Positions 58,472 to 60,037 of a DNA stretch of 64,000 bases are shown here, piece by piece; position 1 is the stretch's first letter; each line of letters opens with the position of its first letter. The stretch lies in NCBI RefSeq assembly GCF_007997385.1, contig NZ_VOSC01000012.1, positions 124,001 through 188,000 of the forward strand, read 5' to 3'. The DNA is from Seonamhaeicola algicola. Its GTDB lineage: Bacteria; Bacteroidota; Bacteroidia; Flavobacteriales; Flavobacteriaceae. The translations under genes were made by a program, and so were the position numbers. The notes below the pieces were generated by a model. The model worked only from the letters and a program-made list of their open reading frames with translations. It had not been told where the DNA came from and made no database searches.

Positions 58472-59491
58472 TTAAAGTGCCGATTTAAACTGCTCTAAAA
58501 AGCGCACATCATTTTCGCTTAATAAACGAATATCACCTATTTGGTGTAATAACATGGCAATACGGTCTATACCCATACCGAATGCAAAACCAGAGTATTC
58601 TTTAGAATCTATACCACAGTTTTCTAAAACGTTAGGATCTACCATACCACAACCCATAATTTCTAACCAACCTGTACCTTTTGTAATGCGGTAATCGGTT
58701 TCTGTTTTTAAACCCCAATACACATCAACCTCTGCACTTGGTTCTGTAAATGGGAAGTATGACGGGCGTAACCTAATTTCAGATTTGCCAAACATTTCGG
58801 TTGTAAAATATTGCAGCGTTTGTTTTAAATCTGCAAAACTTACATCTTTATCAATATACAAGCCTTCTACTTGGTGGAAAAAACAGTGTGAACGCGCTGA
58901 AATAGCTTCGTTTCTGTACACACGACCCGGTGAAATTGTACGAATTGGTGGTTTATTATTTTCCATGTAACGCACCTGTACTGAACTGGTGTGCGTACGT
59001 AATAAAATATCTGGATTTGTTTGAATGAAAAACGTATCCTGCATATCACGTGCTGGGTGATATTCAGGTAAATTTAAAGCTGTAAAATTATGCCAGTCGT
59101 CTTCAATTTCAGGTCCTTCGCTTACGTTAAACCCAATACGCGAAAAGATATCAATAATTTGATTTTTAACAATTGAAATAGGATGACGGGCACCTATTTG
59201 AATGGGCTCGCCTGGGCGCGATAAATCGCCATATATGCCTTTTACCTCTTCGTTGCTTTCTAATTCTTCTTTTAAGGCTTTTACTTTATCTTCAGCCGTT
59301 TTTTTAAGCTGGTTTATGGTTTGACCAAATTCACGTTTTTGTTCGTTGGCCACATTTTTAAACTCTGCAAAATATTCATTTAACAATCCTTTTTTACCTA
59401 AGTATTTAATACGGAATGTTTCAACTTCATCTTTTGTTTGTGCTTTAAAAGCTTCGGCTTCGGCTATAAGTTCTTTTAATTTATCAATCAT
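58472..59491 (-). CDS. pheS: phenylalanyl-tRNA synthetase alpha subunit
   Basis: 339 residues, normal length. Helical N-terminal arm (about 1-85), then the class II core: motif 2 [19 protein letters not shown] with [10 protein letters not shown], motif 3 [20 protein letters not shown], and the Phe-binding region. It pairs with PheT, which is not in the window. The -7 box TAAATTTG (59511-59518, minus) lies 19 bases upstream. Confidence 0.97.
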
Positions 59492-59585: not shown

Positions 59586-59682
59586 GCGTTAGGGATTGAG
59601 CTATTTGTTTGAAATCCTTTTTACTTTTTTAAAAAAGTAAAAAGATTGAGTAGTGAAAGCCCGACCTGTAAGGGAACGCCCT
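59586..59682 (+). repeat. structured flavobacterial intergenic element
   Basis: About 97 bases with three constant-looking blocks: GCGTTAGGGATTGAG, AATCCTTTTTACTTTTTT and its exact mirror, and AAAGCCCGACC with GGGAACGCCC at the end. The centre (59617-59644) is a perfect 28-bp palindrome, extendable by AATC/GATT. I recognise the order of GTTAGGGAT, ATCC-hairpin-GAT, AGCCCGACC and GGGAACGCCC from intergenic elements scattered in Flavobacteriaceae genomes; this is memory, not a search. It ends on the stop codon of the minus-strand gene at 59681. Confidence 0.6.
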
Positions 59683-60037
59683 AGTTTATATATGCGGTTT
59701 CTAAAAAATAGTTTACTATGGCTTCTTTCATTAAAATGCTTTGTTCTCCTGCTTTTAGGTTGGGTAATTGTTCTAGCATTTTGTAGTGTGGCCACCCGTC
59801 TTCATCTACAAAATCTAACTGGTAATAGCCATAGGGTGTTAATAATTTGCAAATGGCAATGTGCATGAGGTCTAGCTTTTGGTCTTTTTTAAAGCTACGG
59901 TTAAGTTGCCCAAGTTCTTGTACGCCAATAAGGTAAATTATGGCATCAAGATCTAAAGTATCTCCATCTGCAAACTGATTAGATAGTTTTTGTACTACCT
60001 GCTCCCAACGTTCTTTTAGTTCTTGGTCTCTAGACAT
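59681..60037 (-). CDS. conserved cytoplasmic protein, unknown
   Basis: 118 residues, no signal or membrane helix. Mostly helical with a short beta part (GYYQLDFVDEDGWPHYKML). It looks like a conserved single-copy protein of flavobacteria but I know no function. Divergent from the cvpA-like gene; a minus-strand TAACTTTG (60067-60074) is its candidate -7 box. Its stop codon lies within the last base of the intergenic element. Confidence 0.7.
   Translation of the reverse strand: MSRDQELKERWEQVVQKLSNQFADGDTLDLDAIIYLIGVQELGQLNRSFKKDQKLDLMHIAICKLLTPYGYYQLDFVDEDGWPHYKMLEQLPNLKAGEQSILMKEAIVNYFLETAYIN

Follow-up and report, generated by a model that had tools for sequence, protein, structure and literature searches.

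What is the short folded element that lies between pheS and a small gene in Seonamhaeicola algicola and touches that gene's stop codon? The window analyzed here (64,000 nucleotides of the S. algicola genome) contains, at positions 59586-59682, an ordered, foldable element for which an earlier note had offered three readings: an RNA motif, a non-autonomous mobile repeat, or a processing site. The same note had described about 97 bases made of four named blocks, and all of these were found in place: GCGTTAGGGATTGAG at 59586-59600, ATCC-hairpin-GAT inside 59614-59647, AGCCCGACC at 59658-59666, and GGGAACGCCC at 59672-59681. The four blocks are the arms of the element's stems. The perfect 28-bp palindrome that it had reported, at 59617-59644, is the longest of the window (the runner-up has 18 bp), and a chance origin was ruled out, as 60 first-order random sequences of window length contained none longer than 24. 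Contact with the neighboring stop codon was also confirmed; the stop codon of the 118-aa gene starts one base past the end of the outer stem, P1. The features of the locus are as follows.

59586-59682, + strand: whole element, a divergent relative of Flavo-1 (Rfam, 28.2 bits; match to our extended model R1 at 59586-59679 with 57.3 bits, a score that is not independent because this copy is among the 17 sequences from which R1 was built)
59586-59591, + strand: 5' arm of P1, GCGTTA, with the last base unpaired here (fold; two-sided changes in other copies)
59592-59594, + strand: 5' arm of P2, GGG (GC/AT/CG exchanges with the 3' arm in other copies)
59595-59598, + strand: 5' side of the internal loop, ATTG (covarying pair TA/AT/GC; A.G to G.A exchange with the 3' side)
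59600-59606, + strand: 5' arm of P3, in the subtype of this copy (fold; same module type by eye in L026, L027, and L030 of the same genome)
59613-59647, + strand: central hairpin P4, part of the exchangeable module and containing the palindrome at 59617-59644 (fold; module exchange in other copies)
59648-59654, + strand: 3' arm of P3 (fold)
59656-59659, + strand: 3' side of the internal loop, AAAG (covariation with the ATTG side)
59660-59662, + strand: 3' arm of P2, CCC (GC/AT/CG exchanges with the 5' arm in other copies)
59665-59674, + strand: side hairpin P5 (fold; pairs counted in other copies)
59674-59679, + strand: 3' arm of P1, GAACGC (fold; two-sided changes in other copies)
59681-60037, - strand: neighboring 118-aa gene, to which the element is antisense (no Pfam family at E ≤ 0.001)
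58472-59491, - strand: pheS, the next gene, on the same strand as the 118-aa gene (ORF and Pfam)

In the predicted fold, P1 pairs 59586-59590 with 59675-59679, and in the RNA fold P5 pairs 59665-59667 with 59672-59674. RNA and DNA parameters gave the same architecture on the + strand, with small differences in P5, and the minimum-energy fold of this strand is the family consensus. Compared with dinucleotide shuffles, the + strand scored z -3.05 as RNA (-25.8 kcal/mol) and z -4.00 as DNA (-14.5 kcal/mol). The opposite strand also beat its shuffles (z -3.03 as RNA and -2.89 as DNA); it was less stable (-20.2 kcal/mol as RNA and -11.6 as DNA) and did not form the full consensus. The 28-bp palindrome is this copy's form of a variable central hairpin and no hallmark of the family.

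At the curated level of Rfam only a tRNA was reported in the window. At a relaxed level, Flavo-1 (RF01705) aligned with this copy at 28.2 bits, below the gathering cut-off of 42, over its full length (model positions 1-76), with the consensus structure, and on the same strand. A comparison with the Bacteroidetes motifs of Rfam had been proposed in the earlier note, which knew of no agreed name for such elements; in this it was mistaken, the name being Flavo-1. The S. algicola genome gave 35 Flavo-1 matches at E ≤ 10, with 17 above the cut-off and this copy ranked 24th, and when seven loci of the 118-aa-gene site were run against Rfam, three (L374, L401, and L043, each from a relative) exceeded the cut-off. 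By the cut-off this copy falls outside Flavo-1; by full-length structural alignment and orthology it falls inside, and, judged from its sequence, it is a divergent, sub-threshold homologue. The gathering level alone was rejected as a detector, as it passes over this copy. P2, the UU/AA pairs, P3, and P4 are common to Flavo-1 and to the elements described here, whereas no pairs are drawn at either end of the structure line in Rfam. The outer stem P1 and the side hairpin P5, which surround this core in the copies of R1, are new to Flavo-1 here.

Weak Rfam matches as sole evidence were likewise rejected, since 10 of 14 control genomes also gave them (none above the cut-off). R1 was therefore built, from 17 complete copies, of which 16 (this copy included) came from the S. 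algicola genome and one from a relative. R1 gave at least 43 matches in the S. algicola genome at E ≤ 1 and at least 39 at E < 1e-3 (150 of 5527 first-look candidates scored), with a single clear match in the window, as had been noted earlier, the only other match up to E 10 having an E value of 1.1. A wider covariance-model search, suggested earlier for Flavobacteriia, was run on the family and found R1 matches in 207 of 299 genomes (15 candidates scored per genome). In a sample of the phylum, matches occurred in 47 of 296 genomes and were patchy. Copy number of the Flavo-1 type ranged from one to at least 118 per genome. Two genomes of the same genus had at least 86 (G044) and at least 118 copies (G265; 150 candidates scored in each), and five single-contig genomes had 56, 29, 75, 34, and 56; 150 of these 250 matches were listed. 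Outside the family, G418 had at least 15 copies and G577 had 11, one of these genomes being from the same class and the other from the same phylum only, and most genomes sampled there had no listed match. At positions 15080-15430 of L230 (S. algicola contig C29, near 543.4 kb), an element missed by R1 was seen whose P4 loop holds an inserted repeat (GGCATTACGAGGAGGTACAACGAAGTAATATC...). This repeat presumably resembles the CGTC-type REPs of Bacteroidetes. A single intergenic region of G294 (L269:9961-10245) holds a pair of oppositely oriented copies separated by about 110 bp.

The fold of the family is under selection, with its frame and hairpins kept by complementary change. Two-sided changes were found at 10 of 20 pairs among the 17 copies (0 of 500 shuffles; 0-3 pairs in slid controls), and again at 10 of 20 pairs at the orthologous 118-aa-gene site (47 cells, 0 of 500 shuffles), where the 23 rows comprised 21 counted copies plus the weak L399 and L378. 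The earlier note had held that a lack of further copies in this genome, or of compensatory changes among copies, would count against its proposal; other copies were present, and such changes were many. Over 186 distinct copies (one duplicate row removed), 3293 Watson-Crick, 53 G-U, 19 A-C, and 119 other pairs were counted. Mutual information in 134 of the 186 copies added one pair that stands alone within the internal loop (TA 103, AT 18, GC 6), and in both copies in which the A of the A.G pair had turned to G, the exchange was from A.G to G.A.

G-U accounted for 53 of 3346 standard pairs (1.6%), a proportion low for an RNA, although the few G-U pairs of R1 itself may bias the figure. For comparison, the proportion was 8.9% (21 of 236) when acceptor and T stems were counted in 21 distinct tRNAs of the same regions and relatives. 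One strand seems favored, because G-U outnumbered A-C on the + strand over all copies (53 vs 19), which an RNA would explain too. The counts were 22 vs 11 (p 0.08) with P3 and the base of P4, the worst-aligned parts, removed, 16 vs 4 where the + strand is antisense to both neighbors, and 11 vs 3 at the 118-aa-gene site. This modest excess argues against the mRNA strand as the selected strand, and purine-purine mismatches also favor the + strand and not the mRNA strand of the adjoining gene.

Genomic context was available for 107 of 133 matches (41 of the 43 own-genome matches plus 92 of those listed for G294, G209, and G168), a set that omits copies without flanks or two flanking ORFs and the listed matches of G071 and G175. 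By a simple ORF caller 105 of the 107 were intergenic. The earlier note was right that such structured, interspersed elements are common in flavobacteria. Relative to the element's direction, both neighbors were antisense for 49 of the 105 copies and both sense for 26, and the gap was convergent for 23 and divergent for 7. Copies avoid divergent promoter regions (7 of 105, vs 116 of the 423 other gaps that measure 120 nt or more; p 1e-6). Orientation was mapped against gene ends, as the earlier note had advised: of the 49 copies with both neighbors antisense, 28 have their 3' end no more than 14 nt from a stop codon, and of the 26 with both sense, 4 have the 5' end equally close (p 0.0006 between these classes). 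In the flanks of 182 copies, a tail of C, C or A, A, A, A (CCAAA) is conserved 3' of P1, and a T(A/G/T)GC box starts exactly 12 nt upstream of P1 in 30. The promoter box TAnnTTTG was not enriched in the 60 nt upstream of these 182 copies (12 sense and 14 antisense, 11.2 expected). The folding strand had lagging-strand polarity in 59 of the 92 listed copies of the three genomes (p 0.009), with replication origins guessed from sparse GC skew, and this bias is weak because gene direction is partly confounded with it (27/7 vs 7/8, p 0.04). On contig C1 of G294, all but one of the listed copies from 0.4 to 2.0 Mb lie on the minus strand and those elsewhere on the plus strand, and these strand blocks disagree with the replichores guessed from GC skew.

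A typical copy consists of a frame (P1, P2 with its A.G/U-A/U-A/G.A internal loop, and P5) and a central module, P3/P4. In the congener G213, 19 copies were found at E ≤ 0.1, and ten could be compared with orthologous S. algicola sequence, the loci L177, L183, and L189 being left out for a single or weak match. Six of the ten sites were occupied in both genomes, a fraction that overstates sharing because the compared stretches were chosen around S. algicola copies; one of the six S. algicola copies was found by eye, R1 having overlooked it. Frame and orientation were kept at all six sites, and the central module type differed in all six. At the remaining four compared sites no S. algicola copy was recognised. 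The central hairpin also differed in three of seven orthologous pairs between G044 and G265. For the close pair G053/G273, all 13 of the G053 copies found were shared and had the same module type, with identities of 0.94 in the elements vs 0.87 and 0.88 in the 60-nt flanks, even with L357/L366 included, whose unequal match lengths lower the element figure. The greater likeness of elements than of flanks suggests constraint in place.

Among 234 distinct copies there were 134 cross-genome pairs with identical segments of at least 34 nt, some of them orthologous. The S. algicola copy L229 is identical to L383 of G044 over 63 nt and to L294 of G209 over 61 nt, and the S. algicola copy L222 to L151 of G044 over 63 nt; in each case the flanks are unrelated, sharing at most 7-9 nt. 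The module of L229 also occurs in a type-A frame, in L277 of G209. One P5 sequence was common to 8 of the 15 best-scoring sampled copies of G265 and to none of 15 in G044. Shared sites carry different central modules, and identical modules turn up at unrelated loci in different genera.

The site of the present copy was followed across genomes. The 118-aa protein, for which no Pfam family was found at E ≤ 0.001, is present in 279 of 298 family genomes. In 21 of the 30 best-matching genomes (S. algicola included) an element lies behind its stop codon (R1, E < 1e-3), all 21 in one orientation, at a distance of 1 to 31 nt (at most 14 nt in 19 of 21) and with at least six central module types by eye; the congener G213 and eight others of the 30 had no clear copy there. 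Among 80 named pheS loci, R1 found the element behind the 118-aa gene in L043, L040, L044, and L037 (E ≤ 0.01) and, as a weak match only, in L047 and L045. The element goes with the 118-aa gene, since L044:970-1410 keeps both together away from pheS. In Flavobacterium, type-A-like copies were found behind pheS itself in seven named loci (L070, L090, L110, L083, L075, L085, and L081; R1 E 2e-6 to 0.015), six antisense and one, L070, in the opposite, sense orientation. The four element-free Flavobacterium pheS loci inspected by eye (L077, L064, L087, and L093) all have a terminator or a different palindrome there.

Based upon these observations, the element probably belongs to a Flavo-1-related family of interspersed repeats that fold and that behave as non-autonomous DNA elements. 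A spreading DNA repeat is likelier than an ordinary RNA gene because of the siting at stop codons, the preserved fold, and the occurrence of the same hairpin across genera, and the family behaves like a DNA repeat in that G-U pairs are rare, no promoter box shows an excess, and the strand that folds often lies antisense to its neighbors. Of the three earlier readings, the non-autonomous mobile repeat is thus best supported, with the RNA motif a possible reading ranked below it. In the mechanism that we propose, the + strand would fold while single-stranded, and the central hairpin would stall or be cut during replication; repair from a resident or incoming copy, to which the frame anneals, would then overwrite the middle. 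Occasional copying to new gene ends would spread the element, and gene 3' ends may be favored because insertions are tolerated or useful there. For the family, the analysis found neither a transposase nor a target duplication, and no precise empty site. MITEs of the DDE-transposase type have terminal inverted repeats of fixed sequence and a target-site duplication; in the present family the arms of P1 are complementary and vary in sequence, and no compared locus offered a clean empty site from which to read a duplication. An autonomous version with its own enzyme was considered and rejected, as no transposase was recognised by eye in the gaps between neighboring copies, for which a single stretch was inspected in each of G071, G168, G294, and G209. 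Searches of phages and plasmids gave no match with one query copy and, with a second, a single 27-nt match to a Persicobacter plasmid record; viral contigs gave no match for two patterns. Against the DNA-repeat reading stand the G053/G273 copies, which are not merely decaying, and the 118-aa-gene site, occupied in 21 of 30 genomes in one orientation, as a host function would also predict.

The leading alternative, which we regard as fairly unlikely, is that Flavo-1 is a functional small or cis-acting RNA, its + strand being transcribed and folding to bind a protein or ligand. Rfam types Flavo-1 as an sRNA, whereas the evidence here leans to a DNA-level repeat. The strong covariation, to which the internal loop adds a non-canonical change of A.G to G.A, would suit an RNA, as would the constraint in place in G053/G273 and the excess of G-U over A-C both where copies are antisense to their two neighbors (16 vs 4) and at the 118-aa-gene site (11 vs 3). 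The table entry for Flavo-1 (Weinberg 2010, PMC2864571) reads RNA 'y', cis-reg 'n', switch 'n'. In F. psychrophilum, several transcribed 5' regions overlap Flavo-1 matches, according to a transcriptome study (PMC9723704); the same study describes the matches as indistinctly sense or antisense to transcribed regions, with many outside them. Less readily explained by an RNA are the lack of any excess of the upstream box TAnnTTTG, the position of the 3' end of many copies within about 14 nt of an antisense coding region, the spread of copy number from one to at least 118, and the long modules that different genera share, letter for letter, at unrelated loci.

Could the element instead serve the adjoining gene as a 3'-end element, acting as a terminator, an mRNA stabiliser, or a ribosome-slowing hairpin? 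In E. coli, REPs that lie within 15 nt of a stop codon reportedly slow ribosomes (PMC12306157), and the closeness to stop codons seen here (28 of 49 antisense-class copies and 19 of 21 at the 118-aa-gene site within 14 nt) would fit, together with the avoidance of divergent gaps and the terminator or other palindrome seen by eye at the four element-free Flavobacterium pheS loci. However, the strand favored by G-U pairs and purine-purine mismatches is not the gene's mRNA, inspection by eye shows no T-run on the mRNA strand past the outer stem, and nine of the 30 genomes, G213 among them, lack a clear copy behind this gene. We consider this role improbable. It is very improbable that the element is of the REP type and moved by a Y1 (RAYT/TnpA) transposase. 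The element is folded, intergenic, and repeated, and R1 matches and Y1 genes are associated across the 299 family genomes (98/109/18/74, p 5e-6, uncorrected for genome size and relatedness), yet the S. algicola genome has no match to Y1_Tnp (PF01797), Y1 genes occur in 20 of 51 high-copy genomes, a share no greater than the 116 of 299 for the whole family, and flank composition in 182 copies shows no GTAG or CGTC tag by the outer stem.

A speculative extension of the preferred reading as a folded DNA repeat, to which we give little credence at present, is that Flavo-1 represents modular exchange at the DNA level, in which the frame would be a single-strand recombination site and the hairpin a cassette swapped between loci and genera by a putative enzyme. 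If the constant frame with exchanged hairpins and the siting behind stop codons hold, a widely annotated 'sRNA' family of Bacteroidota would largely be a horizontally spreading DNA repeat, its automatic annotation as sRNA would mislead, and Flavo-1 elements would offer a natural system for the overwriting of hairpin DNA from ectopic copies. Flavo-1 has been a candidate RNA since 2010, and a flavobacterial transcriptome of 2021 yielded no real clue to its function. No account of Flavo-1 as a DNA repeat or with module exchange was found in the literature covered, which lay mostly outside subscription papers and preprints.

Several known repeat systems invite comparison. REP/BIME, ERIC, and BOX elements are likewise short, non-coding, folded, intergenic, present in many copies, and often near stop codons; BOX repeats are modular in build, and ERIC elements carry internal insertions. 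Flavo-1 copies differ from these in being longer and multi-stemmed with variable stem sequence, and the S. algicola genome has no RAYT; no Y1 gene was recognised by eye between the neighboring copies inspected. Integron attC sites share one-strand folding, a structure kept over variable sequence, and a variable terminal hairpin. The core order of attC is RYYYAAC/GTTRRRY, which the outer stem of the present element, GCGTTA/TAACGC, does not follow, and no cassette genes were seen between the copies inspected. Modular exchange in Flavo-1 would have an attC/integron-like logic, but dispersed over chromosomes and behind stop codons. What the comparison adds to Flavo-1 is the architecture of P1 and P5, a behavior of module exchange, and an address behind stop codons, in antisense.
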